From: Nitrospira sp.
GTDB lineage: Bacteria; Nitrospirota; Nitrospiria; Nitrospirales; Nitrospiraceae
Length of the DNA stretch: 64,000 nucleotides
Direction: 5' to 3'
Assembly (NCBI GenBank): GCA_022226955.1
Contig: CP092079.1
Coordinates: 1,581,053-1,645,052 of the forward strand
In this document: piece by piece, positions 17,870-32,990 of the stretch
How positions within the stretch are numbered: position 1 is the first letter of the stretch
How the letters are laid out: the number at the start of each line of letters is the position of its first letter
Translations under genes and position numbers: made by a program
Notes under the pieces: model-generated
What the model was told of the DNA's origin: nothing
Seen by the model: only the letters and a program-made list of their open reading frames with translations
Database searches by the model: none

Positions 17870-18016
17870 TCGCCCGTATTCAACAAGGCCACACGCATTC
17901 GTGTGGGAAGGCCAGAGGACATGAGTCCAGAGCCCGCGATCGTACCGCATCATTGGATCCGGCATGCCGGTGGCGCCCCGCCGGCATGCCGCAGTGGAAA
18001 GGGATACGCGTCACCG

Positions 18017-18577
18017 ATGACGAAATCTGCACAATCGCCCCTGCTTGCCGGACGCCTTGGCACGCTCACCGAAGAGCTGAGCCTCTATGCTCCGCAATGG
18101 GCCAATCGGCTCGCCCGGGCGAAATCGGAACAGGAACTTCTGGCAGTGGTCAGCGCCCTGTTTAACTTGACCCATGCCTTGAATCCTAGAATGAAGCGCG
18201 TCGCCGTCCATCAGCCATCTCTCTCCACACGCATGCACCAGTTTATCGGAGCCAATCTTCATAAGGGCGTGACCCTCAAACTCTTGTCGCAGTTTCTCGG
18301 GTATTCAGAAAAGTATTGCTCTGACCTCTTCCACAGCACGATGGGCGAATCGTTCTCGGCACATCTCAAACGCCGCCGGCTTGAAACCGCTCGCATCTTC
18401 CTGCAAACCACGGACATGGGCGTGGCTGAAATCGCGACGGCCATCGGATTTGGCGATCAATTTGCTTTCAGCCATTTCTTTAAGCGAGCGACCGGCCAAT
18501 CTCCACTCCGGTATCGATCGGAGCGCGGCCGTCGCGCGCTCACCCCAGGCCCCAGCCAGGCAAAGCGGCCCTCATGA
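18017..18577 (+). CDS. AraC-family transcriptional regulator
   Basis: 186 aa from ATG 18017 (in-frame starts upstream at 17903 and 17921 are possible). The C-terminal half is a double helix-turn-helix: TLKLLSQFLGYSEKYCSDLF and, in the second, MGVAEIATAIGFGDQFAFSH followed by FFKRATGQSPLRYR. The N-terminal part (about 80 aa) is too short for a full cupin sensor and has no match. Its stop overlaps the start of the adaptor-protein gene (ATGA), so it is translated together with the efflux operon it probably controls. The ligand is unknown. Confidence 0.85.
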   Translation: MTKSAQSPLLAGRLGTLTEELSLYAPQWANRLARAKSEQELLAVVSALFNLTHALNPRMKRVAVHQPSLSTRMHQFIGANLHKGVTLKLLSQFLGYSEKYCSDLFHSTMGESFSAHLKRRRLETARIFLQTTDMGVAEIATAIGFGDQFAFSHFFKRATGQSPLRYRSERGRRALTPGPSQAKRPS

Positions 18578-19815
18578 CCACTCCGCCGATTCGAGATGCC
18601 GATGTGTCCGTCCTCACCTTGCCGCGGGAGGACCCGCCTCACGAGTCTCGCCCATCGACCGCATGGCGTCGATGGGTCGTCGGAAGCCTCCTGATCTGTA
18701 CCTGCCTGGCAGGACTCTATTGGTTTCTTCCCGCGTTCTCCTCTGCGCCGGAGGTCGAGACCGCTCCGGTGAAAATCATCGGGAGCGCTGGACCGTCATC
18801 GCTCTTGAGCGCCAGCGGATACGTCGTCGCACAGCGGCAAGCCTCCGTCGCCTCCAAAGGCACCGGGCGATTGGAACATCTGAACGTCGCGGTCGGAAGC
18901 CGCGTCACAGTCGGAGAGATCATCGCCCGGGTACAGCAGGACGACGTGCAAGCCATCCAACGGCAGGTGCGCGCACGTTTGGATGTAGCTAAATCGGCCT
19001 TGATCAATGCGCAGGCCGAATGGCGCGATGCCCAGCAAAGCCATGCGCGGGCCACCGCCTTGCTGCCCAATCAGTTTGTCTCGCAAGCCGAATTCGACAC
19101 GACTGCTAACCGCCTCAGACGGGCGGAAGCCATGGTGCGGTCTTCTACGGCGGCCATCACGGCGGCCGAAGCCGATGTGCAGGCGGCCGACGTGATGCTG
19201 GAGAACACGCTGATCCGAGCGCCGTTCGACGGGGTGGTGCTCAAAAAGTTCGCCGAGATCGGTGAAGTTGTCGCGCCCATGGCCAGCTCCGCCAGCTCGC
19301 GGGGCGCCGTGGTATTGATCGCAGACATGACGTCGCTGACGGTTGAAGCGGACATTTCCGAATCGTCGATCGCGCAGATCTCGCCAGGCCAGACCGCCGA
19401 CATCACCTTGGACGCCATCCAAGGCAAGCGCTATCCGGCGATCGTGCAGCAAATCGTGCCGACGGCCGACCGGTCCAAAGGAACCGTGCTGGCCAAAGTT
19501 CGGTTCTTGGAACTGGACGAACACGTGCTCCCAGAAATGAGTGCGAAGATTTCCTTTCACGCGCCACCGCAGCCGCAGGCCACATCCACCCCGCGCTTTC
19601 TGATTCCGTCCAGCGCGCTGGTGCTGAAGAACGGCACACCTGTGGCCTATGTGCTCGACGGCGACATTGTGCGTGAAATCTCGATTGAAGAAATCGCGAC
19701 ACGCGGTAGCGAGCGTGAGGTGCATGGCGCCTTGACCGCTGCGGACCGGATCATTCTCGCTCCGCCATCGTCGCTGGCACCCGGCGACCGAGTGCATCCC
19801 CGTGCCACCCAGTAG
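18574..19815 (+). CDS. HlyD/MacA-type periplasmic adaptor protein
   Basis: 413 aa: cytoplasmic tail (1-30), one membrane helix near 35-52 (WVVGSLLICTCLAGLYWFLP), a biotinyl-lipoyl half (ASKGTGRLEHLNVAVGSRV), a long alpha-helical hairpin (about 130-205, RQVRARLDVAKSALINAQAE), the second lipoyl half (IRAPFDGVVLKKFAEIGEVV) and beta-barrel and membrane-proximal domains. It links an inner-membrane ABC pump to an outer-membrane channel. Followed by an ATPase and two permease genes, as in MacAB and DevBCA-like systems. No TolC gene lies nearby. Confidence 0.88.
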   Translation: MTTPPIRDADVSVLTLPREDPPHESRPSTAWRRWVVGSLLICTCLAGLYWFLPAFSSAPEVETAPVKIIGSAGPSSLLSASGYVVAQRQASVASKGTGRLEHLNVAVGSRVTVGEIIARVQQDDVQAIQRQVRARLDVAKSALINAQAEWRDAQQSHARATALLPNQFVSQAEFDTTANRLRRAEAMVRSSTAAITAAEADVQAADVMLENTLIRAPFDGVVLKKFAEIGEVVAPMASSASSRGAVVLIADMTSLTVEADISESSIAQISPGQTADITLDAIQGKRYPAIVQQIVPTADRSKGTVLAKVRFLELDEHVLPEMSAKISFHAPPQPQATSTPRFLIPSSALVLKNGTPVAYVLDGDIVREISIEEIATRGSEREVHGALTAADRIILAPPSSLAPGDRVHPRATQ

Positions 19816-19829
19816 GAGATCTATTACCG

Positions 19830-20504
19830 ATGAATCAGCCAGCCATTGAGTTTCGCCGCGTCACGAAATCCTATTTCCGTGGAAACCAGGAAGTGCCGAT
19901 TCTTCGAGACTTCAACCTGTCGATTCCCGCAGGGCGATTTCTGGCGGTCATGGGGCCTTCGGGATCTGGCAAGACCACGATTCTTAATCTGGTCGCCGGT
20001 CTGGACCGCCCCACCAGCGGCACCATCCAGGCGGCCGGCGTGACAGTATCTCAACAGCGAGAATCGGAGCTTGCTCGATGGCGGGCGCGGCATATCGGCT
20101 TTGTATTTCAATTCTACAATCTCATTCCCGTTCTGACGGCAGCAGAAAATGTGGAGCTGCCGCTGCTGCTTAGCAGGCTGGCCAAACGGGAGCGCGCCAC
20201 GCATGTGCAAGCCGCGCTCGGCCTCGTTGGATTGCACGACCGCCTCCACCATTATCCCCGCCAGCTCTCGGGAGGCCAGGAGCAGCGCGTCGGCATCGCG
20301 CGCGCCATCGTCAGCGATCCAACCATTCTCCTGGCGGACGAACCGACGGGCAATCTCGACCGAAGCGCGGCCGAAGCCGTCATGGCTCTGCTCTCGCGGC
20401 TGCATGTGGAGCTCAAGAAAACGATTCTGATGGTCACTCACGATCCACGCGCCGCCGAATACGCCCAGGAGACGCTTCATTTCGATAAAGGCGCGGTGAG
20501 CTGA
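19830..20504 (+). CDS. MacB/LolD-type ABC transporter ATP-binding protein
   Basis: 224 aa, single ATPase domain: Walker A GPSGSGKTT near 45-53, Q-loop FVFQFYNLIPVLTAAENVE, signature LSGGQEQRVGIARAI, Walker B ILLADEPTGNLD and H-loop MVTHDPRAAEYA. The FQFYNLIPVLTA segment is typical of the LolD/MacB subfamily that drives extrusion by periplasm-facing permeases. Four bases separate it from the first permease gene. Confidence 0.9.
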   Translation: MNQPAIEFRRVTKSYFRGNQEVPILRDFNLSIPAGRFLAVMGPSGSGKTTILNLVAGLDRPTSGTIQAAGVTVSQQRESELARWRARHIGFVFQFYNLIPVLTAAENVELPLLLSRLAKRERATHVQAALGLVGLHDRLHHYPRQLSGGQEQRVGIARAIVSDPTILLADEPTGNLDRSAAEAVMALLSRLHVELKKTILMVTHDPRAAEYAQETLHFDKGAVS

Positions 20505-20507
20505 CCC

Positions 20508-21677
20508 ATGACCATCGGGACATTGATCGTCCGTAATCTTCGGCGGCACCTGCTCCGTGTGACAATGACGGCACTCGGCATCGCGACCGTCATTCTCGCG
20601 TTCAATCTCATTGTCACCACCGTCCGCGCCTGGTATGCCGGCGTCGAATCGGCCGTCCCCAACCGGCTGATCACCCGCCACGCCGCCTCGCTCTCCATTC
20701 ACCTCCCGCTGGCCTATCGAGACCGCATTGCCAGTCTCGACGGGGTGACCGGCGTGACCTATGCCAATTGGTTCGGCGGGGTCTACCGGGACGCCAAAGG
20801 ATTCTTTCCGCAATTCGCCGTGGAGCCGGATTCCTTTCTGAATCTTCACGCGGAGCTCTCGGTGCGCGAGGACGAACGGCAGGCGTTTCTCAGCGATCGT
20901 CGGGGCTGTCTGATCGGCCGCCGCCTGGCCGATCTCTACGGCTGGAAAGTCGGCGACGTCATCGCACTCAAAGGGACGATTTATCCGGGAGATTGGGAAT
21001 TCGTCGTCCGGGGAATCTATCGAGGGGCGACATCCACGACAGATGAAACCTGGATGCTGCTGCGGTGGGATTATCTGAACGAACGCCGCCTGTTGATCGA
21101 TCCGGATCGGGCCGGTACGGTTGGATGGTATGTCGTGCGCCTGGCCGATCCCGCGCGCGCGGGCTCACTGTCGGCCGCCATCGACACCGAGTTTGCCAAT
21201 TCGATGGCGGAAACCAGGACCGAGACCGAACAGGCCTTCCAGATGGGCTTTGTCGCCATGTCCGGCGCCATTATCAGCGCGTTGAACGTGCTGGCGATTG
21301 CGCTGAACGGGATCACGCTCTTGGTCCTCGCCAACACCCTCGTGATGGCCGTTCGCGAGAGAACGAAAGAACTGGCGGTGTTACGGACCCTGGGATTTCG
21401 TCCCTCCCATCTCGCCGCGCTGGTAGCGGGTGAAGCGCTGCTGATCGCGGGGCTCGGGTCGTTTCTCGGCATCGCCCTCACGATCCCGGCCACCGCTCTC
21501 TACGCCGGCATGGTCGGAGCCAAGCTGGGAAATTTTTTCCAACATATGAACTTATACCCCAGCACCGTTCTCCTGAGCGCTGCGGTAACCCTGAGCATCG
21601 CCGTCTGCGCATCGGCGATTCCCATCGCCACCGTGCTGCGCCGATCCATCGCCTATGACTTGCGCCACGCTGGGTAG
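20508..21677 (+). CDS. FtsX/MacB-type ABC permease, first subunit
   Basis: 389 aa: one N-terminal helix (about 17-37), a large periplasmic domain (about 40-255) and three C-terminal helices (about 258-288, 308-340, 348-375), the layout of FtsX-like permeases. The segment NTLVMAVRERTKELAVLRTLGFRPSHLA is the conserved coupling loop. Paired with the next gene, which suggests a heterodimeric pump with the LolD-type ATPase and the HlyD-type adaptor. Substrate unknown. Confidence 0.88.
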   Translation: MTIGTLIVRNLRRHLLRVTMTALGIATVILAFNLIVTTVRAWYAGVESAVPNRLITRHAASLSIHLPLAYRDRIASLDGVTGVTYANWFGGVYRDAKGFFPQFAVEPDSFLNLHAELSVREDERQAFLSDRRGCLIGRRLADLYGWKVGDVIALKGTIYPGDWEFVVRGIYRGATSTTDETWMLLRWDYLNERRLLIDPDRAGTVGWYVVRLADPARAGSLSAAIDTEFANSMAETRTETEQAFQMGFVAMSGAIISALNVLAIALNGITLLVLANTLVMAVRERTKELAVLRTLGFRPSHLAALVAGEALLIAGLGSFLGIALTIPATALYAGMVGAKLGNFFQHMNLYPSTVLLSAAVTLSIAVCASAIPIATVLRRSIAYDLRHAG

Positions 21678-21689
21678 AAGCTGACAACG

Positions 21690-22862
21690 ATGCCATTGCT
21701 CTGGAGCTATAGTGTGCGAAACGTCTGGGTGCGCAGCAGCACCAACGCATTAACCGTTGCCGGACTCGCCTTGGTCAGCCTGGTGCTCCTCGCAGTCCTG
21801 ATGCTGGGAAACGGATTGAACCGCGCCCTGATCGAAAGCGGTTCGACGGATAATGTGTTGCTCTTGAGAAAGGGAGCCACCACCGAAATCGCCAGCGGCA
21901 TCTCTCGCGATCAAGCGCACATCGTCCAAGCGCTGGCCGGCATTGCGCAAACCTCCGCCGGGGAGCCGCTGGCCATTCCTGAACTCGTCGTCTTAATCAG
22001 CCTCAAAAAAACCGGCGCCGAGAGCGCCGCCAATGTCGTGGTCCGCGGAACTCAACCGGATACCTTCGCGCTGCGGCCGCAGGCCACCCTCGTGCAAGGA
22101 CGCCTGTGGCGGCCCGGCACCGCTGAAATCGTGATCGGTGCGCAGATTGCGAAGCGGTTTCTTCCAGGTGGACTCGGAGCGCATCTGCGGATCGGCAAGC
22201 GCGAGTGGCAGGTCGTCGGCATCTTCGACGCGCAGGGCACGGCCTTCGATTCAGAAATCTGGGGCGATGCCGATCAACTGATGGCTGCATACGGACGAGA
22301 CTCCTATTCGTCGCTGACCGCTCGCCTTGCACACCCCACTGCATTCCAACCGCTCGATGACACCATTGGAACAGACGCGCGATTGCTGCTCCAGGTAAAA
22401 CGGGAACGGGAGTATTACCGCGAGAAATCCATGACGATGGCCACATTTATCAGACTCCTCGGATTGACCTTCACCGGCATTTTCGCCGTTGGAGCGATTC
22501 TGGGCGGCACGATGACGATGTACGGGGCGGTGGCGTCCCGAACCAGGGAAATCGGCATGCTGCGCGCGCTAGGATTTTCCTCCTCGACCATCCTCGCCTC
22601 GTTTCTCTGCGAGTCCTTGCTGATCGGCGCCCTGTCCGGATTGCTAGCGATCGGCGGCGGCACCGCCTTGCAGTTCGTCACGCTCTCCACGATGAACTTC
22701 AGCACCTTTTCCGAATTGGCGTTTCGCCTGACTCTGACTCCAGCCTCGATCCTCATCACCCTGGCCTTTGCGATCGGAATCAGCCTGCTTGGCGGAATTC
22801 CACCGGCGCTGCGAGCCGCGCGGCTCCCCGTCACCTCCGCACTGCGCGCGCCCGGCCAATAG
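21690..22862 (+). CDS. FtsX/MacB-type ABC permease, second subunit
   Basis: 390 aa with the same four-helix topology: helix near 17-38, periplasmic domain, then helices near 260-288, 308-335 and 350-380. The coupling loop reads YGAVASRTREIGMLRALGFSSSTIL. It starts 12 bp after the first permease gene. The pairing of two distinct permeases differs from MacB, where one fused ATPase-permease forms a homodimer. Confidence 0.88.
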   Translation: MPLLWSYSVRNVWVRSSTNALTVAGLALVSLVLLAVLMLGNGLNRALIESGSTDNVLLLRKGATTEIASGISRDQAHIVQALAGIAQTSAGEPLAIPELVVLISLKKTGAESAANVVVRGTQPDTFALRPQATLVQGRLWRPGTAEIVIGAQIAKRFLPGGLGAHLRIGKREWQVVGIFDAQGTAFDSEIWGDADQLMAAYGRDSYSSLTARLAHPTAFQPLDDTIGTDARLLLQVKREREYYREKSMTMATFIRLLGLTFTGIFAVGAILGGTMTMYGAVASRTREIGMLRALGFSSSTILASFLCESLLIGALSGLLAIGGGTALQFVTLSTMNFSTFSELAFRLTLTPASILITLAFAIGISLLGGIPPALRAARLPVTSALRAPGQ

Positions 22863-23601: not shown

Positions 23602-23616
23602 TGAGAATTGATCTCA
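23602..23616 (+). promoter_or_regulatory. Fur-box-like operator heading the tonB/chelatase cluster
   Basis: TGAGAATTGATCTCA is a 7-1-7 inverted repeat with both TGAGA/TCTCA arms perfect, the best symmetrical site of the three in this window. A possible -10 (TATGAT, 23594-23599) lies immediately upstream; no good -35 was found. Confidence 0.68.
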
Positions 23617-23634
23617 TGAACTGGAGCCGCGATC

Positions 23635-24840
23635 TTGTCGCATTCCGACCTCCATCAGGGCCTCATCCTCATGGCGCCAACCGAGCGGCCTCACCAACTG
23701 ATGTCAGCTTGGGGAATATCCCTGTGCGTGCATGCCCTCATCGTCGTAACAGCCGCCGGCCTCCTCCGTGAGTTGCCTCAACTCCCTCCTCCGACATACC
23801 GCATGGAGCTGCTCCTCCATGAGTCTTCGCATGCACCTTCGCCTCACTCTTCAGCTGCCGCCGATACGCCCTCCGCCAGCAAGGACAGGGCCAATCAGCC
23901 GCAAGCCGCACCAGTCATGGCAAGCCCACAGCACAAATCCGCCGCATCGAGCGCGCAACCGATCAAAGCGCCTGTAGACAGGACGCCCTCCGTCGTCCAG
24001 CAGACTCCGACTCAGGTCACCACTGTCACCCGAGTCGCCCACAGCATCCTGTCATCGACCGCAGTCCACACCACGACTCCCATGACCACCTCTCAACCAA
24101 TTGAACAACGTATTGAGAGCAGTCCAACGGCCAATGAATTCTCCGCTCTTACTCCTCAGCCTGCGCCTCACACAGTTGAGCGGTCGTTGGTATCCACGAC
24201 CGCTCCCACACTGTCACCTCCTGCATCTCGAGAAGTCGTCACCGAGCGGCAGGAACGCTCAATTGCGCAGGTGCAGCAACAATCGGCAAAGTCTGCATAC
24301 ACCCCTCTCACCCATTCCGGGCAGGCACCGGCTTCGCCTCATGGCGCTGACGGAACGGACGGAACGGAAGCGGATACCGACTCGCCTTCATCGGACGCCA
24401 CACAGCACAACGCGAAAGCCGGAGCAGCTGCATCTGCCCCTACACCTTCCTCTCACGCTGAAGAGGCAAAAGATCCAGAGGCTCCCGATGCGCCACATGC
24501 CGTCGTGGCCATGGGCCACCCCTCTATCACCCGGACAATTTCCGCCGGATCGGATTTTGGCTGGCTGACCGACCTGCTCAAGCGAAGAATAAAAAGTTTT
24601 CAAGCCTATCCGCGGCTGGCCGCCATGCAGGGCTGGGAAGGAAAAGTCGTCGTGCAGGCCACGATCGGACAGGATGGCCGGTTACTCAGTGCGGTCGTGA
24701 CGGAAAGCTCGGGCTTTGCCTCCCTGGATCAAGACGCATTGACCCTCATGCATCGCGCCACTCCTATCCATTTCCAACAGGAGCTTGGGCAAACCCACAT
24801 CGACGTATTTATTCCCGTCATCTATCACCTGAACCGCTGA
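23635..24840 (+). CDS. tonB: TonB-family energy transducer, second copy
   Basis: 401 aa if the TTG at 23635 is used (GGAG is 8 nt upstream); ATG 23671 is an alternative. Membrane anchor about residues 23-43 with His33 (WGISLCVHALIVVTAAGLL), then an Ala/Pro/Ser/Thr-rich region to about 300 and a C-terminal TonB domain (LLKRRIKSFQAYPRLAAMQG, VVVQATIGQDGRLLSAVVTE). Only the C-terminal domain and anchor resemble the TonB at 6902; no ExbBD is nearby, so the ExbBD at 6.1-6.9 kb may serve both. It is the first gene of the receptor/chelatase cluster and likely serves the receptor at 26588. Confidence 0.85.
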   Translation: MSHSDLHQGLILMAPTERPHQLMSAWGISLCVHALIVVTAAGLLRELPQLPPPTYRMELLLHESSHAPSPHSSAAADTPSASKDRANQPQAAPVMASPQHKSAASSAQPIKAPVDRTPSVVQQTPTQVTTVTRVAHSILSSTAVHTTTPMTTSQPIEQRIESSPTANEFSALTPQPAPHTVERSLVSTTAPTLSPPASREVVTERQERSIAQVQQQSAKSAYTPLTHSGQAPASPHGADGTDGTEADTDSPSSDATQHNAKAGAAASAPTPSSHAEEAKDPEAPDAPHAVVAMGHPSITRTISAGSDFGWLTDLLKRRIKSFQAYPRLAAMQGWEGKVVVQATIGQDGRLLSAVVTESSGFASLDQDALTLMHRATPIHFQQELGQTHIDVFIPVIYHLNR

Positions 24841-24856
24841 TGAAAGGACGACCGTC

Positions 24857-26545
24857 ATGCACATACACACCCTGTCCTTAATCGCCGCAGGCTTGCTGCT
24901 CTGCGCCACCTGGGCACCGGCAGTTGCCGCGCCACCCTCGACGGTCGGGTTCCTGGTCGTCGCGCAAGATCGAGGTTTTCTTGGCAATCAAGAAATCAGA
25001 GCCCTGGTCGATGAATTTAAGCAGTCGTATCCAGCCGCCTTGGGATTAGTCGGTCGCGACGCGGCAAGCGTCGACGGTGAATATGCCGGCTACCTCTCTC
25101 GAGCCGCGCAGGAGTTGAAGCAAGCCGGCGCCACTGAAATTGTCGCTATCCCGCTCTTTCTCTCCGACGCGGACCCATTGCTCACGCACATCAAGCCGCT
25201 CGTGCCCGCGCATACCGGCGGGCTGCCTGTTCGGTGGGCGCCGGCCATGGCTCACGACTACCTCATCGGCCAAATCGTGCTCGATCGGGTCGAGGCCTTG
25301 AGCGAACAGGCCGGATCGGAGCGCCTCATTCTCGTCGGCACCGGCGCGATGGATGAAGCCAGCGCCATGGCCTTGAAAGTCGATCTCGAGAAGTTGCTCG
25401 CCTACGTCGCGCGTTATAAAAAGTTTCGCGATGCGGAAGTCGTCATGTACTACGACCGCGCCGCTGAACGTGCCGGGCAGAACAACAAAGACGTCACGGC
25501 CTACCTCCTTGCTCAAATCGCCAAGCAAGGCCGCACGCTGCTGGTGCCAGTCTCAATCGGGCCCAAGTTCGATACGGCCATGTCCCTGACCAGCTGGCTG
25601 GGCGGACAATTCAAACACACCCAGGCTGTGTACAAACCAAACGAACTGCTGCCACACCCAAATGCCCTGCTGTGGCTGAAGAAAACAGCGAATCGGGACA
25701 CCCCGCTCTCAGCCGCATCGCTGGGGCTGGTGATCATGCCGCACGGATCGACGCAACCGTGGAACGACGCTGTGGAATCGGCCATCCAGCCGCTTCGATC
25801 CCACTACCCCGTCGAAATGGCCTATGGGATGGGCGATCCCTACATCATTCAAGAGGCGGTCTCCCGCCTTGAGCAACGCGGCATCAGGCGGATCGTCTTC
25901 GTGCGGATGTACGCCCTGGATCATCATATGAAATCGCTCACGGACTACATCCTCGGCCTGGCTGAGCATGCCGACGAACCTGGCCATGAGAGCGGACACG
26001 GCCATGCGTCCGAGGCGCCGCCTCAAGTCAGGACCGCGGCGCTCTTCTCCACGTTCGGCGGGTATGAACAGAACCCGGAGATCGCCCACGTCCTCCACGC
26101 ACGCATCGCCGAAATGAGCACGGACCCCGCCAATGAAACGGTCTTGCTCATCGCGCATGGAGAAGGCACCGACGAGGGCAACGATCGATGGCTGGCGGTC
26201 ATGAATCAGAACATCGCGCGGCTTCGGCAAGATCCCCATTGCGCCACGCTCAAATCCGTGCAAGCGCTGACCGTCCGGGAGGACTGGCCCAAAGAGCGCG
26301 AACAGGCCGTGGCGCAAGCGCGCGCCATCGTCGAAGACGCGGGGAAGAACGGGCGGGTCCTCGTCATTGCCAACCGCCTGTACGGGTCCGGCCCCTATAA
26401 AACCATGCTGAAAGGGCTGACCTATGACATGAATGAGAAAGGGCTGGTCCATCCCATCTTGACTCGCTGGCTGGAAGACGGTGTCCGCCGGCTCACCGCA
26501 GAATTAATCCCGCACGACGCAGAACAACACCTGGCAAGGCCTTAG
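24857..26545 (+). CDS. Exported four-repeat CbiX/chelatase-like protein with His-rich loop
   Basis: 562 aa. Signal peptide (cleavage near AVA-AP, residue 25) places it in the periplasm. Four CbiX/SirB-like half-domains follow: about 29-125 (motif decayed to AQDRG), 156-250 (VGTGAMDEA), 289-370 (MPHGSTQPWND, His296, with ALDHHMKS at 353-360) and 428-525 (IAHGEGTDEGND, His434). A His-rich loop (371-383, HADEPGHESGHGH) precedes the fourth. Class II chelatases insert metal into, or remove it from, tetrapyrroles; a normal two-half enzyme has about 260-300 aa, so this is a tandem of two. D. vulgaris has a periplasmic CbiK-type precedent. Between tonB and the TonB-dependent receptor. Confidence 0.75.
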   Translation: MHIHTLSLIAAGLLLCATWAPAVAAPPSTVGFLVVAQDRGFLGNQEIRALVDEFKQSYPAALGLVGRDAASVDGEYAGYLSRAAQELKQAGATEIVAIPLFLSDADPLLTHIKPLVPAHTGGLPVRWAPAMAHDYLIGQIVLDRVEALSEQAGSERLILVGTGAMDEASAMALKVDLEKLLAYVARYKKFRDAEVVMYYDRAAERAGQNNKDVTAYLLAQIAKQGRTLLVPVSIGPKFDTAMSLTSWLGGQFKHTQAVYKPNELLPHPNALLWLKKTANRDTPLSAASLGLVIMPHGSTQPWNDAVESAIQPLRSHYPVEMAYGMGDPYIIQEAVSRLEQRGIRRIVFVRMYALDHHMKSLTDYILGLAEHADEPGHESGHGHASEAPPQVRTAALFSTFGGYEQNPEIAHVLHARIAEMSTDPANETVLLIAHGEGTDEGNDRWLAVMNQNIARLRQDPHCATLKSVQALTVREDWPKEREQAVAQARAIVEDAGKNGRVLVIANRLYGSGPYKTMLKGLTYDMNEKGLVHPILTRWLEDGVRRLTAELIPHDAEQHLARP

Positions 26546-26587
26546 CGCCGCGACGCTGTCACCCTCTTCACGCAAAGGATGCATTGA

Positions 26588-28654
26588 ATGACTATGCAGA
26601 GAACCGGATTTCGACCTTCCCCTAGAACCGCGCTCGCCATGCTGACTATCGCCGCCCTGTACACAATAACCCCTCTCGCGACCCAGGCAGCCGACGACAT
26701 CACAGCGACCGTATCGGACGCACCGCCAAGCGTGCCGGACGAGCCGGCCACACCGGCAACCGTTCCTCTAAAAAGTCTCTTCGTCGACGACATCGTCATT
26801 ACCGGAACGTGGACCCCGCATGCGCAGAAGGACTCGCCCGTCGAGATCGAACGGATCACCTCGAAAATGATCGAGCAGGCCGGCGCCACCAATCTTCGCC
26901 AAGTGCTGCAAGACGTGCCGGCCATTGAGTTTCGCCGCACAGGAGGACGCTTTCAACAGTTTCAAATCCAGGGCCTGGAGAGCATTCACACGCTGTTTCT
27001 GGTCAACGGACAGGAATTGATCGGCTCCACCGAAGGCGGGCAATTTACCGACGATCTGCTGGCCTCCCCTGATATCGAATCGATCGAAGTCGTCAAAGGC
27101 GCCGCCGCCGTTCAATACGGCAGCGATGCCATCGGAGGCGTCATCAACATCCGCACCAAACGGGCCACGAAAGCGCTGGGCGGCACTATCACCGGACAAT
27201 ATGGCCGCTACAACACTGTCACGACCTTTGCCGCCCCCGAGTTCCGTAGTGCCGACGGCAAGTTCGGCGGATACATCGCAGCCGGCGTGTCCAAGTCGGA
27301 TGGCGTCGACTACATTCCCAGCACGCCGGTCACGAACGGAGAGCCGCGCTACTCGACGAAGAATATCAGCGCCAACTTCGATTACGCATTCTCCAACTCC
27401 GTCAAGTTCTCACTCTACAATAAATACACCGATCAGGACCGTGTGAGCCTCGGAGGGGCCGCCGTCACATCCACGCGAAGCCAGACCACCAGCAACAACG
27501 AGCGCAATCAGACGGTCGCCAGGATGGATTGGAGCCCCGATGCCGTCTCGACCTTGAGCATCTGGGGGCACTACCAAAGTTTCCAAAATGAATCGCGCAC
27601 CAACACACTGGGCACCGGCGCGCAAACCCGAGTCTCCAAATATACCCAGACGCTCTGGGAGCCGCAGTTTCAATACACCAGGCAGCTCGATCAGCACAAT
27701 CTGCTGACGCTCGGCGGCGAGCACGACATGCGTTCTATCGAGGGGTTGAGCTTCGCGTCTCCGTTGGCTATCAAACACCTTACGGAAACCGCAGGCTGGG
27801 TCCAAGATGAAATCGCCGTGCTCCCCTGGATGGACATTCTCCTGGGCAGCCGCTACACCACCAATAGCGAGGCCGGAGGAGCCTGGAGCCCGCAAGCCAC
27901 GTTGCTGCTCAAACCAGGCAACTTTCGCGGCCGATTCTCCTACACCAAAGGGTTTCGATCCCCCAGCTTATCCGAACTCGGCGCCTCGTTCGTCGAAGGC
28001 GGATTCTTCGGCATCGTCGGCAACCCCAACCTCGCCCCCGAGAAATCGACGAGCTACACCGCCAACGTTGAATACTATTTTGAGCATGCCAAGATCGGCG
28101 CCTCCGTCTTCAGGCATGACGTCGACAACCTGATCCAATTCGTCAACGGCACCTGCTCGGCAACAGACGCCGCCAGTCTCGGCGTCGCGCAGAACTTCTG
28201 CCAAAAACCGTTCAACACCGCCGTGACGCGAAGCCAAGGCTTCGAACTTGAGGGAGGCATCAGGCCGCTTCCCTGGCTCTACCTCGAAACCGGCTACATG
28301 TATCTCGATGCGCGCGACCACACCACGGACCAATACCTATTCGGCCGATCGCGCCATACATGGAAAACCCGCGCGAACATTGAGTACGACGGATGGACCT
28401 ACACCACCAGGCTTCGCTACTTCTCCTCCTTCGGGTTCGCCGACGCGAATGCCAATGGACGCATCGACCGCGATCAAAACGAGCTCGCGCCGTCGAATGT
28501 CCAGCTCGACATGAGGCTGGCGAAAACGTTCCCGAATGGGATGGAACTCTATGTCGGCGCCGACAACATCACCAAGGCGCGCGTGCAAGTCGGAGGCGTC
28601 CCGCCTCCGGAAGGACAGCAACTCTATTACGTCGGCATGCGGATGGCCCTGTAA
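26588..28654 (+). CDS. TonB-dependent outer-membrane receptor
   Basis: 688 aa. Signal peptide (about 1-35), a TonB-box-like VDDIVITG (66-73), a plug domain (about 80-195, with [20 protein letters not shown] and [20 protein letters not shown]-type landmarks) and a 22-strand-type barrel to the C-terminus, ending [11 protein letters not shown]. The plug motif [16 protein letters not shown] is typical of siderophore, heme and cobalamin receptors. Flanked by two exported chelatase-like genes, so a metal chelate or tetrapyrrole is the likely ligand. The substrate cannot be read from sequence. Confidence 0.9.
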
Positions 28655-28725
28655 GAAGAGCTCAGGGGCGCATGGAGGGGGCGAGGCTGCATGCTCCTCC
28701 GCCCATAACACAACGGAGGTGGCAC

Positions 28726-29655
28726 ATGTACTACGCACTCATCGCACTGGTGGCCCTCACAGGGGTATTTTTTTCACCAACAAATCCAGCCTACGCCGCG
28801 CCGCAGGACGAAGGCAGAAAAATCGGCGTCTTGCTGGTCAACCATGGATCTCGCTCGGAGACCTGGAGAAACGGCCTCTTGCAGCTTGAAGCGCATGTCG
28901 CTCCATCGATCCTCCGCAACCCGACCGTCAAAGGATTGAAAACGGCCTTCATGGAGTACACCGAGCCTTCCATCGCGACACGCATGAAAGAGTTCGACCG
29001 CGAAGGATTTACCGATGTCATCCTCGTGCCGGTTTTTCTCACTGTCAGTCCTCACACCTTCGACGATATTCCCACCATCGTGGGGTTGAAGGAAGATCCG
29101 CATTCGATGCAACAACTCAAGATCGAAAAAATCGAACGCTATACTCCGCGCGCGCAGGCCCACATCACGCCGCCGCTCGACTTCACGGATATGCTCCAGA
29201 AAAATCTGCTGCGGCGCGTCACCGCGCTGTCGCACGATCCAGCGCATGAAGGCTTGGTGTTGATTGGATATGGCGATGAGACCTACGACAAGGAATGGGT
29301 CGACTTGTTCGGCAAAGTCGCCGGCTACGTCCGGCAGCACACCGGAATTGCCGAATACGCCTACGGCTGGTGCGGCCACATTGCCAACTACAAACCGGAA
29401 GAAACAACCGCGGCGATCAATACCGTCCTCAAGAACGCACAGACCGCCCTCGTGATCCCCGTTCTCGTCGCGCACGACGAACAGTTTCAAATCAAGATTA
29501 TCGGCGACGGCATCGCCAAGGTGGCCAACAACAAAACCCGCGTCCTCTACAAACCGGACTCGATCCTGCCCGATCCAAATGTCGAACTCTGGGTCATCTC
29601 TGTAACTGATGAATATGTGCGCAAGATTCAATCGCACGCATCCAAGGTCAACTGA
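28726..29655 (+). CDS. Exported CbiX-like two-domain chelatase homologue
   Basis: 309 aa from ATG 28726, chosen for CGGAGG 6 nt upstream; the open frame runs back to 28393 but that overlaps the receptor gene. Signal peptide (cleavage near AYA-AP, residue 24). First half about 32-130 with [10 protein letters not shown] (His40) and [15 protein letters not shown] (102-116), close to the CbiX metal-site pattern. Second half about 175-285 with [21 protein letters not shown] (His218) and PVLVAHDEQ (His250). Shared fold with the four-repeat protein but a better-conserved active site. It follows the receptor and overlaps the next gene by 1 nt (TGATG). Confidence 0.82.
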
Positions 29656-30251
29656 TGCAGGCACAAACCAAACCTCTGCTGCACTGGCCAGACCGGGACG
29701 TTCTGGTACGGCTCAACCTCGCGACACACCGGGATGTCGGCTATGTCTGCGCCTCCTTGATCCTCGCCTATTGCCTATCGGGGATCGCGCTCAATCACAT
29801 CGGCGATTGGAACCCAGACTTTGTAATCTCCAAACAGGCTGTCACGCTGCCGCACGCCTATACAAAAAACGAGATCACCCGGGAGACAATTGCAGATTTT
29901 GGGAAGCTCGTGGATGAAGACGCATACAAAGTCTATGACTTTCCCACCGGCGATCAGGTCAAGATTTACTACGACAACGCCTCGCTGCACCTCAACCTGG
30001 CGACAGGCCATGGCACGTACGAAAAAGTGTCGCGCCGGCCCGTCTTATATCAGGTGAATGCCTTGCACCTGAATCGGCTCAAAGGCTGGAAATGGGCGTC
30101 GGATCTGTTTGCACTTGTCCTGATTATTCTGAGCCTCACAGGACTCCTGGTCCTGCGGGGCAAATATGGGCTGGCCCGCCGGGGGAAATGGTTGGTGATC
30201 GCCGGAATGCTGCCGCCGCTGCTGGCCTTGATTCTTTTCGAGCTTAAATGA
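29655..30251 (+). CDS. PepSY-associated inner-membrane protein
   Basis: 198 aa. N-terminal helix about 27-47 (GYVCASLILAYCLSGIALNH) with His25 and His48 near each end, a periplasmic PepSY-like domain (about 55-135, VDEDAYKVYDFPTGDQVKIY), then two C-terminal helices (about 148-168, 178-195). The NALHLNRLKGWKWASDLFAL segment is typical of PepSY-TM proteins. Such proteins (PiuB, FoxB) act as membrane redox partners in reductive release of iron from siderophores; that would fit the cluster (inference). The start overlaps the chelatase stop codon. Confidence 0.8.
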   Translation: MQAQTKPLLHWPDRDVLVRLNLATHRDVGYVCASLILAYCLSGIALNHIGDWNPDFVISKQAVTLPHAYTKNEITRETIADFGKLVDEDAYKVYDFPTGDQVKIYYDNASLHLNLATGHGTYEKVSRRPVLYQVNALHLNRLKGWKWASDLFALVLIILSLTGLLVLRGKYGLARRGKWLVIAGMLPPLLALILFELK

Positions 30252-30394: not shown

Positions 30395-31879
30395 ATGCTC
30401 GCACAGGTTTCGCATCCCACGTTATTTTCGTCTTCCCACGCCTCCCTCGGCGTCCTCACCTTGGCGGTACTTGCCGTCCTCAGCGGCTGCTCAAGCGACG
30501 ATCCCGCCGCGCCCACAGCGGCGCCAGCGGCACTCTCACTGACTGCCACGAACACTCAGATCGCCCTATCGACCGATGAGAACGACCAGCTTCTTGGCGT
30601 TGTCGCTCATGACACCCAATACTATGCCACGGGGTTTAAAACCGTGAATAAGGACCGGCACCTCGTCCTCGCCCGATTTGACGCGGCAGGGACGCTAGAC
30701 CCCACCTTCGGGACAAACGGTGTTGCCACCATTAACGTGGCTGTGGCCGCCACGCCAGGTCAGGAGGCAACTCAGGAAGTCGCGCGCAGCGTCGTCGTGC
30801 AATCAGACGGGAAAATCGTGATTGCCGCGACCATCGAGCACGACCTCGCGGCCACCGGTGTGGCCGTGAACGATACGGACATTGCCCTGGTGCGCTTTAC
30901 GGCTACCGGGCAACTCGACCCCACCTTTGGCACAGCCGGCATCAGCCAGCTGGATCTCAAACCAGGCGTCCCCAATGCGGCCGGTACCGCTATGGTGGGC
31001 GATACGGTCTATGGCCTCACCCTTCTGTCCAACGACGCGCTGCTCATTGTCGGCGCGCAACCCAACGGCGGCGTGGGCCGCACCGACCGCGATTATGCGA
31101 TTGTCAAATTCACACAAGATGGAGCAAAGGACACGACGTTTGCCACCGACGGCGTCTTCGCGCAAGACATTGGACAGGGCTCGGACAATCCACGGAACGC
31201 CCTTGTCCAACCCGATGGAAAGATTATTGCCAGCGGCTATACAGGCACTGGGAATGTAATCTCGACGGTCTTGTTCCGTCTCTCACCCACAGGCCAACTC
31301 GACCCCACCTTTGGCAATGCTGGGATCGCACAAGTCCCGGTGCTCTCAGCCGTCACGGAAGCCTACGATATTGCCTTCCAGCCCAACGCCAGCGGTTCAG
31401 ATAATATTGTCATGGCGGGCTATGGACGAGACAACTCCAGCAGCACCGTCAATATTATTAGCGCCAGATTCCTCTCCAATGGTTTCCTGGATCGAAGCTA
31501 TGGCACCAATGGGATCGTGAGCCTTGATGTCTCAGGCCTCAATCTCAATGACCGAAGCCGGAATCTTGAGGTGCTCCCCAGTGGGCATGTCCTAATCGTT
31601 GGGCAAGGTTTCCGTGCCGCCTCAGAGCAAGATGGCGTCTTCGCACTCTTGACCCAAAACGGCCAGCCGGAGACCCGCTTGAATGGCACAGGAATCGCGT
31701 TTGCTCATTTTGGAGGGCCCAGCGATGCGCTCTTCGGGCTAGCCCTCGCGCCAGACAAGCGCTCTGGACTTGCGGTGGGGTTTAAAGGACTGAATACCAG
31801 CATCACGACCCCGGCGCCGCCAACGCCCACCAACAACGACGATGCCTATGTCGTGCGGTTTACGTTGCCTGCACTCTAG
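30395..31879 (+). CDS. Lipoprotein with delta-60 (NHL-like) repeats
   Basis: 494 aa, ATG 30395 with AAGGAG 9 nt upstream. Lipobox LSGC (about residue 33), then five recognisable repeats of the form LDPTFGTNGVATINV (delta-60 repeats), each ending in a segment such as VVQSDGKIVIAATI or VQPDGKIIASGYTG. These fold as beta-propeller blades. Located after the PepSY gene with a 143-bp gap and likely has its own promoter; a strong hairpin follows at 31895-31922. Function unknown: an outer-surface or periplasmic binding platform is plausible. Confidence 0.8.
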   Translation: MLAQVSHPTLFSSSHASLGVLTLAVLAVLSGCSSDDPAAPTAAPAALSLTATNTQIALSTDENDQLLGVVAHDTQYYATGFKTVNKDRHLVLARFDAAGTLDPTFGTNGVATINVAVAATPGQEATQEVARSVVVQSDGKIVIAATIEHDLAATGVAVNDTDIALVRFTATGQLDPTFGTAGISQLDLKPGVPNAAGTAMVGDTVYGLTLLSNDALLIVGAQPNGGVGRTDRDYAIVKFTQDGAKDTTFATDGVFAQDIGQGSDNPRNALVQPDGKIIASGYTGTGNVISTVLFRLSPTGQLDPTFGNAGIAQVPVLSAVTEAYDIAFQPNASGSDNIVMAGYGRDNSSSTVNIISARFLSNGFLDRSYGTNGIVSLDVSGLNLNDRSRNLEVLPSGHVLIVGQGFRAASEQDGVFALLTQNGQPETRLNGTGIAFAHFGGPSDALFGLALAPDKRSGLAVGFKGLNTSITTPAPPTPTNNDDAYVVRFTLPAL

Positions 31880-31932: not shown

Positions 31933-32406
31933 CTAGGACTGCTTGATCTGTTCGGCGAGATAGCCCGTCAAGCCAACCTGAGCAATCGTCGCCAATTGCC
32001 GCTCGAAGTAATCCACATGCTCTTCTGAATCGACCACCATCTCTTCAAGTTTATGCCGGGTCGTAAAATCGCCTGCGCTGGCCGCATGCGCGATCGCCGC
32101 CCGCAACATCTCCACGTCTTCCCGTTCGAATGCCAGGTTGGTCTCAAACAGGTCTTTGACGGACGCCCCGCCTTTCACCGCGTCCAACACTCCGACGTCC
32201 GGCTGGCCGCCCAGATACAGCATATGGCGAACCAGCTGCCCGGAATGAGTCACTTCCTCTGTGTAGAGATGCTGAAACTTGTCCGCCAGCCGCTCATAGC
32301 CCCAATGGCGGCAGAGCTCTGCGTGGAGCAAGTATTGATGCACCGCGGTTAACTCGGCGGTGAGAATTTTTCCAAGTCGTTCAAGGATTCCGTCTTTGGC
32401 TTTCAT
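31933..32406 (-). CDS. bfr: Bacterioferritin subunit with ferroxidase residues, lacking heme Met
   Basis: 157 aa four-helix ferritin. Numbered as E. coli Bfr it has Glu18, Glu51, His54, Glu94 and His130 of the di-iron ferroxidase centre, but residue 127 is Ser with Glu at 128-129, and the heme-binding Met52 is Val. It lies 41 nt downstream of the second subunit, which has the opposite pattern. RBS AAAGGA on the minus strand upstream of ATG 32406. Iron storage in mixed-subunit cages is the expected role (known for Pseudomonas and Neisseria pairs). Confidence 0.85.
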   Translation of the reverse strand: MKAKDGILERLGKILTAELTAVHQYLLHAELCRHWGYERLADKFQHLYTEEVTHSGQLVRHMLYLGGQPDVGVLDAVKGGASVKDLFETNLAFEREDVEMLRAAIAHAASAGDFTTRHKLEEMVVDSEEHVDYFERQLATIAQVGLTGYLAEQIKQS

Positions 32407-32447: not shown

Positions 32448-32924
32448 CTAACTGTCTTTCTTGATCTGCTCGGCCAGATAGTTCTCAAGCCCGACCTGCT
32501 TGACGGTTTCCATCTGCGTTTCGATCCAATCGATATGGGCATCGACGTCTTTGGCCATATCTTCCAGCATATGCCGGGTCGTGAAATCCCCAACCTTCAC
32601 GCACTGCACAATCCCTTCGTTCAACAACGCCAGCATCTCCTGCTCAGCCTTCAAATCGAGCGTGAACTGCTCCGGCACGGTTTCACCGACATGCACCGTA
32701 TTCATCCGCTGCACGTTCGGCACGCCTTCCAGATACAGGATGTGCCCGATAATCTGATCGGCATCTTTCATTTCGTCGATGCTCCGCTCGCGCACCTTGT
32801 GCTGCAGCCGGTCGAACCCCCAATTTTCACACATCTTGGCATGGACAAAATATTGGTTGATGGCTGTCAGGTCGGCGGTCAAGACCTTGTTCAAGATATT
32901 GATGACCCCCTCTTTCGCTTTCAT
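32448..32924 (-). CDS. bfr: Bacterioferritin subunit with heme Met, degenerate ferroxidase centre
   Basis: 158 aa from ATG 32924 (AAGGAGGG 10 nt upstream); the longer reading frame to 32990 lacks a binding site. Met52 (in SIDEMKDAD) is present as the heme ligand. Of the ferroxidase residues, position 18 is Asp, 54 is Asp and 127 is Val, while Glu51, Glu94 and His130 remain. It likely provides heme-mediated iron release in a hetero-oligomer with the downstream subunit. First gene of the pair, behind a sigma-70-like promoter at 32962-32990. Confidence 0.85.
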   Translation of the reverse strand: MKAKEGVINILNKVLTADLTAINQYFVHAKMCENWGFDRLQHKVRERSIDEMKDADQIIGHILYLEGVPNVQRMNTVHVGETVPEQFTLDLKAEQEMLALLNEGIVQCVKVGDFTTRHMLEDMAKDVDAHIDWIETQMETVKQVGLENYLAEQIKKDS

Positions 32925-32961
32925 CGTGATGTCCCTCCTTCTCAGAAAATGGTAGCCCCCA

Positions 32962-32990
32962 AAATTAGGAGCGCAATAATATCGAATCAA
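32962..32990 (-). promoter_or_regulatory. Possible promoter of the bacterioferritin pair
   Basis: On the minus strand TTGATT (32990-32985), 17-bp spacer, TAATTT (32967-32962), 37 bp before the bacterioferritin start. The -35 is moderate; no Fur box is obvious. Confidence 0.4.

Follow-up and report, generated by a model that had tools for sequence, protein, structure and literature searches.

Release of heme iron without a heme oxygenase has been explained biochemically only recently, and for one enzyme, the HmuS of gut Bacteroidota, a reductant-dependent enzyme that removes the iron of heme, with protoporphyrin IX as the product (PMC12583661). Here we describe a five-gene cluster of Nitrospira sp. 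at positions 23602-30251 of a 64,000-nucleotide stretch of contig CP092079.1 (positions 1,581,053 to 1,645,052, hereafter called the window), which lies at 1.58-1.65 Mb of the 3.6 Mb genome (complete, single contig). The cluster encodes TonB, a putatively exported tandem chelatase (chel1), a TonB-dependent receptor, a second putatively exported chelatase (chel2), and a PepSY_TM membrane protein. We consider it fairly probable that it is a Fur-controlled heme-iron acquisition module, in which heme would be de-chelated outside the cytoplasm by exported class II chelatases.

The Bacteroidota hmu operon (PMC12583661, PMC10100974) shares with this cluster a TonB receptor, a chelatase that is exported (here by prediction), a need for a reductant that is presumed for the cluster, and the context of iron starvation, as well as HmuY, which is found here in relatives of the cluster. 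However, HmuS belongs to class I, being a CobN/ChlH homologue with a length of about 1,450 amino acids (aa), whereas the cluster proteins are of the class II CbiX/SirB type, and no PF02514 match was found in chel1 or chel2. In Porphyromonas, IhtB (FetB), which adjoins a TonB receptor and an ATP-binding cassette (ABC) importer, was proposed to strip heme iron on the grounds of its similarity to CbiK (PMC10913741, PMC6460266); FetB has been deposited as a heme-binding protein (PDB 9b86), and a 2026 review credits it with manganese insertion (PMC13402209). The Iht system of Porphyromonas gingivalis (IhtA, IhtB/FetB) has in common with the cluster an exported chelatase of class II fold, that of the chel1 N-terminal unit, encoded with a TonB receptor. 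It differs in that IhtB/FetB is a CbiK-type lipoprotein with the ABC importer IhtCDE, whereas the ABC system adjacent to the cluster is of the FtsX/MacB type with HlyD, and in that its published description (PMC10913741) is without a tandem chelatase or a PepSY/NosR partner. No CbiK (PF06180) match was found for the window proteins; the relatives L140b and L147 scored 27.8 and 25.8 bits, around the cut-off of 26.2.

The periplasmic CbiK of Desulfovibrio vulgaris (PDB 2xvx/2xvz) is also an exported class II chelatase and matches the chel1 C-terminal unit, but it consists of a single unit, and chel2 is CbiX-type by sequence. The sirohydrochlorin chelatases CfbA, CbiX and SirB share with chel2 the sequence family and the H9/H75-type metal ligands; their known members are cytosolic and biosynthetic, whereas chel1 and chel2 have export-type N termini and fall below the curated NCBIfam CbiX/CfbA/SirB cut-offs (71.3/120 and 64.5/120 for chel2, with chel1 lower still). 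Chel1 and chel2 share the fold of IhtB and the proposed logic of the HmuS and IhtB systems but belong to neither family. An initial sequence-only reading of this DNA knew of no described system of this composition; the Porphyromonas IhtA/IhtB(FetB) system and the Bacteroidota hmu operon do, however, follow a similar logic. In a literature search that covered few subscription journals, we found no description of this arrangement, nor of HmuY, an FMN (flavin mononucleotide)-binding protein and a chelatase together; mentions of CbiX in the TonB literature, apart from that on HmuS, were incidental.

Gene content, linkage and Fur box

Reading frames and domain scans confirmed the five genes in the order given by the sequence-only reading, with the tight stop/start overlap that it had noted: the chel2 stop TGA (29653-29655) is overlapped by the PepSY start ATG (29655-29657). 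The features of the cluster are as follows:

23602..23616, plus strand: Fur-type box TGAGAATTGATCTCA, 10/14 to the consensus (12-13/14 in relatives)
23671 (ATG)..24840, plus strand: tonB; Pfam TonB_C 2.1e-12, over cut-off; TTG at 23635 as a possible earlier start
24857..26545, plus strand: chel1, 562 aa, tandem class II chelatase with export-type N terminus; Pfam CbiX match over cut-off; AlphaFold2 model
26588..28654, plus strand: TonB-dependent receptor, CirA/heme-receptor-like; Pfam Plug and beta-barrel over cut-off
28726..29655, plus strand: chel2, 309 aa, two-domain CbiX-type chelatase with export-type N terminus; Pfam CbiX 6.4e-14
29655..30251, plus strand: PepSY_TM_like_2 membrane protein, 198 aa, candidate reductase; Pfam 3e-15, over cut-off

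Among 85,000 species genomes scanned, chel1 was located in 43 loci, distributed over Nitrospirota, Nitrospinota, proteobacterial classes, Planctomycetota (Scalindua), Bacteroidota (Fodinibius), Acidobacteria, Latescibacterota and others, and the named closest relatives of the window chel1 are Nitrospira metagenome-assembled genomes (MAGs). Among 296 Nitrospirota genomes, 22 carry chel1 and nine carry full-length chel2, all nine together with chel1. Neighborhoods were counted over 42 chel1 loci, and in 30 of these a TonB receptor lies no more than 6 kb from chel1. The order tonB-chel1-receptor-chel2-PepSY is repeated in relatives with chel1 about 73-84% identical. Because this order recurs and all nine chel2 genomes carry chel1, the linkage of the cluster genes, on which the sequence-only reading depended, is not a matter of chance.

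The order in Nitrospira is AraC - HlyD - ABC - FtsX - FtsX - (Fur box) - tonB - chel1 - receptor - chel2 - PepSY, often then followed by bacterioferritin genes. A sister group has, in place of this receptor, one from a different subfamily, together with insertions of a PEP-CTERM-like protein and a winged-helix regulator, while chel1, chel2 and PepSY are retained. A separate order-level search, around a Thiotrichales genome, covered three genomes only. On one contig of Nitrospira MAG DGJ02_3_Bin65, the cluster is present in two neighboring versions, of which one contains truncated pieces of chel1 and chel2; this resembles an ongoing exchange of receptor modules.

The box in the window, TGAGAATTGATCTCA, matches the Fur consensus at only 10 of 14 positions and alone is not significant (shuffle p 0.08). 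At the same position, close relatives have TGAGAATAATTATCA or TGAGAATTAGTATCA, with 12-13 matches out of 14 (0/300 shuffles), and for this reason the box of the window is probably real. Fur-like sites with 11-13 of 14 matches were also found upstream of chel1 in several distant loci (for example L077, L079, L081, L087 and L090).

The putatively exported class II chelatases

The AlphaFold2 model of chel1 had a predicted local distance difference test (pLDDT) value of 88.4 and a predicted template modeling (pTM) score of 0.86. In structure alignments, the N-terminal unit (residues 26-285) matched SirB with a Z score of 20.2 (root-mean-square deviation 3.0 Å over 230 residues), CpfC/HemH with a Z score of about 18, and the exported FetB of Porphyromonas (9b86) with a Z score of 15.6, whereas residues 283-551 matched the Desulfovibrio vulgaris periplasmic cobalt chelatase CbiK (2xvz) with a Z score of 15.8. 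Both units therefore have the fold of the class II chelatase superfamily, as modeled, and a profile comparison of the two halves (hhalign) gave a probability of 99.6% (E 4.8e-25). Because of these structure alignments and the profile match between the halves, the model of chel1 is read as a tandem duplication of a two-domain class II (SirB/ferrochelatase/CbiK) unit. The four repeats of the sequence-only reading are thus four domains, or more exactly two tandem two-domain units, an N-terminal unit with a degenerate site (26-285) and a C-terminal unit (286-551), with a His-rich linker at about 374-388.

Nine residues are invariant in 36 chel1 sequences (D38, R39, H296, R350, H434, E475, W477, R507 and P533), of which H296 and H434 (36/36) come from the HG motifs of domains three and four. 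In chel2, H40, E77 and H110 align with CfbA H9, E42 and H75 (profile alignment, E 3e-13, residue numbers read off the alignment as printed), so that H40 and H110 correspond to the metal ligands of the CbiX/CfbA/SirB motifs (HGS, xxHxxxDIP). Along with Y182 and a WCGH motif (215-218), these three residues show no variation among the Nitrospirota, Gammaproteobacteria and Bacteroidota. By this alignment, both metal histidines of CfbA/CbiX are retained in chel2. A start codon and hydrophobic segment precede the core in 39 of 43 chel1 and in 9 of 9 chel2 sequences (by a hydropathy script with inspection, not SignalP), and lipobox-like N termini were seen on inspection in some relatives. Export-type N termini and retained metal-site histidines, two points on which the sequence-only reading could have failed, were therefore both found.

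Three side observations concern these genes. On Manganitrophus plasmids, chel1 is labeled "hypothetical protein" in GenBank; on one of them it is split into four frames (L092:10010-11557), and intact copies are present on two other Manganitrophus plasmids. One Nitrospirota genome (G137, loci L047 and L048) has three chel1 homologues, two of them adjoining, beside lipoprotein-like genes (cluster k190). At L140:4417-7227, a NosR-like gene lies between two copies of chel2, and the lipoprotein signal of copy a is out of frame, an apparent frameshift or assembly error.

Heme-type partners, proposed mechanism and alternatives

The receptors and binding proteins encoded beside homologues of the chelatases are of heme type in several loci. 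Curated heme/hemoglobin cut-offs were passed by chel1-adjacent receptors in the proteobacterial and acidobacterial loci L070, L073, L075, L087 and L088, and those of the heme-receptor families TIGR01785/TIGR01786, which the window receptor does not reach, were passed beside chel1/chel2 homologues in other phyla. In two Nitrospira relatives, the receptors between chel1 and chel2 have heme as their best family, with 293.6 (L056) and 269.9 (L059) of the required 316.85 bits, and the chel2-linked receptor of L147 scored 430 bits. HmuY is rare in the Nitrospirota (5/296 genomes), and it was found over cut-off beside chel1 in three loci of this phylum (L068, L072 and L078) and in Fodinibius of the Bacteroidota (L085), where the order receptor - HmuY - chel1 is the hmu layout without HmuS. 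Beside chel2, HmuY was found in two gammaproteobacterial genomes (L140 and L147) and on two plasmids of Persicobacter, again of the Bacteroidota (L144 and L145). CobN, the HmuS family (PF02514), was absent from all 19 genomes checked, and the window genome has no PF01126 heme oxygenase.

The heme-type receptors, the HmuY neighbors and the absence of CobN make heme the most likely substrate of the cluster. The earlier proposal of a receptor and exported chelatases for a metallo-tetrapyrrole, probably with reduction, is retained and is narrowed to heme by this comparative evidence; for the window's own receptor, heme is the presumed cargo.

HmuY proteins of the Nitrospinota and other Nitrospirota (L131-L139) were dropped as support for heme, as no TonB receptors adjoin them; they occupy recurring places, for example beside radical-SAM genes, which suggests a different role for the domain there. 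In the Latescibacterota locus L086, what looked by eye like part of an HmuY was not confirmed by Pfam.

A gene for a PepSY_TM protein, as present in the window, occurs in 15 of the 42 chel1 loci, and H25, H48, H112 and H138 of this protein are invariant in 11 sequences; a PDB sequence search with it gave nothing credible. In the chel2 operons with HmuY (L140, L144, L145 and L147), a NosR-like FMN/iron-sulfur membrane protein (FMN_bind + Fer4_5) occupies the place that PepSY_TM has in the window, and an FMN_bind protein is also found beside chel1 in L088. On the two Persicobacter plasmids (L144:12938-16609 and L145:12992-16627), a single reading frame, about 1,210-1,220 aa long, encodes the NosR-like FMN_bind/Fer4_5 membrane protein fused in frame with an entire TonB-dependent receptor, an inner-membrane/outer-membrane fusion that is topologically odd.

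In the mechanism that we propose, the receptor, energized by the TonB of the cluster, would carry heme, or a closely similar metallo-tetrapyrrole, to the periplasm, where electrons passed to the periplasmic side by the PepSY_TM protein (in other phyla, by the NosR-like protein) would convert the iron to Fe(II). The exported class II chelatases would then work in the reverse direction and set Fe(II) free, chel2 by means of its His/Glu/His site, and chel1 may bind the tetrapyrrole, or catalyze or assist demetallation through its C-terminal unit, or both.

Several findings weigh against heme de-chelation by this cluster. With regard to the receptor of the window, TonB-hemin is its best NCBIfam family but scored 149.6 bits versus the cut-off of 316.85, and there is no histidine in its FRAP/NPNL segment, where heme receptors usually have one. 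Some relatives encode HmuY together with a heme TonB receptor, as the HmuS operon does, whereas the window lacks HmuY, and a search for HmuY in the Nitrospirota found none in the window genome. The receptor's shortfall from the heme cut-off and its best PDB match, which is CirA, would suit import of a ferric siderophore, with reduction by the PepSY_TM protein as proposed for pseudomonad ferrisiderophore reductases (PepSY_TM proteins are known as such reductases) and with the chelatase homologues as metallochaperones. We think this very unlikely, given that TonB-hemin is still the best family of the receptor and that the replacement receptor around the same chel1/chel2/PepSY core in the sister species is heme-like.

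With regard to the chelatases, sequence alignment revealed no HG motif or canonical histidines in the N-terminal unit of chel1, so that the C-terminal unit is the only candidate catalyst within this protein, and the second canonical metal histidine is not conserved in chel1. The AlphaFold2 model of chel2 is poor (pLDDT 58), and the site is inferred from sequence; with this weak model, Foldseek ranked HemH and SirB first (E of about 2e-5 to 7e-5), and VIA-align gave nothing above noise. The degenerate N-terminal site and incomplete histidine pair of chel1, its two tandem binding units, and the deposition of FetB as heme-binding could alternatively mean that the exported chelatases are non-catalytic, hemophore- or storage-like shuttles that receive heme from the receptor and pass it on intact. 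This is unlikely, because the complete His/Glu/His site of chel2 is retained in three phyla, a gene for a dedicated reductase recurs next to the chelatases, and the cluster contains no importer of intact heme.

The fold alone cannot separate metal insertion from removal. If the chelatases instead inserted Co, Fe or Mn into an imported metal-free tetrapyrrole, in a FetB-like production of Mn-protoporphyrin IX or in salvage of a cobalamin precursor, the adjacent reductase would not be needed, and the Fur-type boxes, bacterioferritin neighbors and heme/HmuY partners point to iron supply. Insertion is therefore quite unlikely in our judgment, even though it is the known biosynthetic direction of the family, the closest solved relatives load Co, Ni or Fe into sirohydrochlorin, and FetB is credited with Mn insertion. 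Two further points against release of heme iron here are that no FeoB over cut-off was found in the genome as an importer of Fe(II), and that the Nitrospirota neighborhoods are partly non-independent.

De-chelation of heme by the exported chelatases remains the reading that we favor. A wider proposal, which we advance tentatively and rate as possible but a little short of probable, is that of an undescribed phylum-spanning heme-iron system, in which chel1 and/or the WCGH-motif chel2 replace HmuS, PepSY_TM and NosR-like reductases are interchangeable, and, in Nitrospira, an FtsX-type ABC transporter exports the porphyrin. The findings point to a second, unrelated chelatase route across nitrifiers, manganese oxidizers, proteobacteria, Acidobacteria and Bacteroidota, with the PepSY_TM/NosR-like protein as a named candidate for the electron donor, a component that the HmuS system still lacks. 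If this is true, heme-iron recycling would join the ecology of Nitrospira, and de-chelation could be tested with small soluble proteins.

The upstream transporter block and neighboring genes

The sequence-only reading had suggested the FbpABC importer at 2-6 kb of the window as a possible next step. Nothing was found to tie FbpABC to the cluster, and the co-inherited transporter is that of the block at 17903-22862:

17903..18577, plus strand: AraC-family regulator, opening the co-inherited upstream block; Pfam HTH_18 5.2e-20; syntenic in Nitrospira chel1 loci
18574..19815, plus strand: HlyD/CusB-type periplasmic adaptor; Pfam HlyD_D23 3.5e-18; syntenic
19830..20504, plus strand: ABC ATPase; Pfam ABC_tran 6.6e-36
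20508..21677, plus strand: FtsX/MacB-type permease 1; Pfam FtsX 1.6e-15, MacB_PCD 1.8e-8
21690..22862, plus strand: FtsX/MacB-type permease 2; Pfam MacB_PCD 8.1e-19; co-occurrence with chel1

Orthologues of the second permease (at least 67% identity) were found in 9 of 77 genomes of the genus, and eight of these nine carry chel1; the ninth genome is a draft, 80% complete, with the permease about 2 kb from the start of its contig. No such orthologue was found in the other listed members of the genus without chel1, and in the remaining chel1 genome that lacks the orthologue (G261), chel1 is at a contig end. Because the permease orthologues track chel1 in the genus, the AraC-HlyD-ABC-FtsX-FtsX block is inherited together with the cluster, despite its position on the far side of the Fur box. 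The HlyD-ABC-FtsX part looks like an exporter, and FtsX-type ABC permeases are known for heme/porphyrin efflux in Gram-positive bacteria (HrtBA/PefAB). By analogy, the metal-free porphyrin might be disposed of through this exporter, which is the least certain step of the mechanism.

Directly 3′ of the cluster, the window contains a gene for an exported delta-60 repeat (beta-propeller) protein (30395-31879), which is without a counterpart there in the relatives examined. It is followed on the minus strand by two bacterioferritin-like genes (31933-32406 and 32448-32990), which are kept near the cluster in several relatives.

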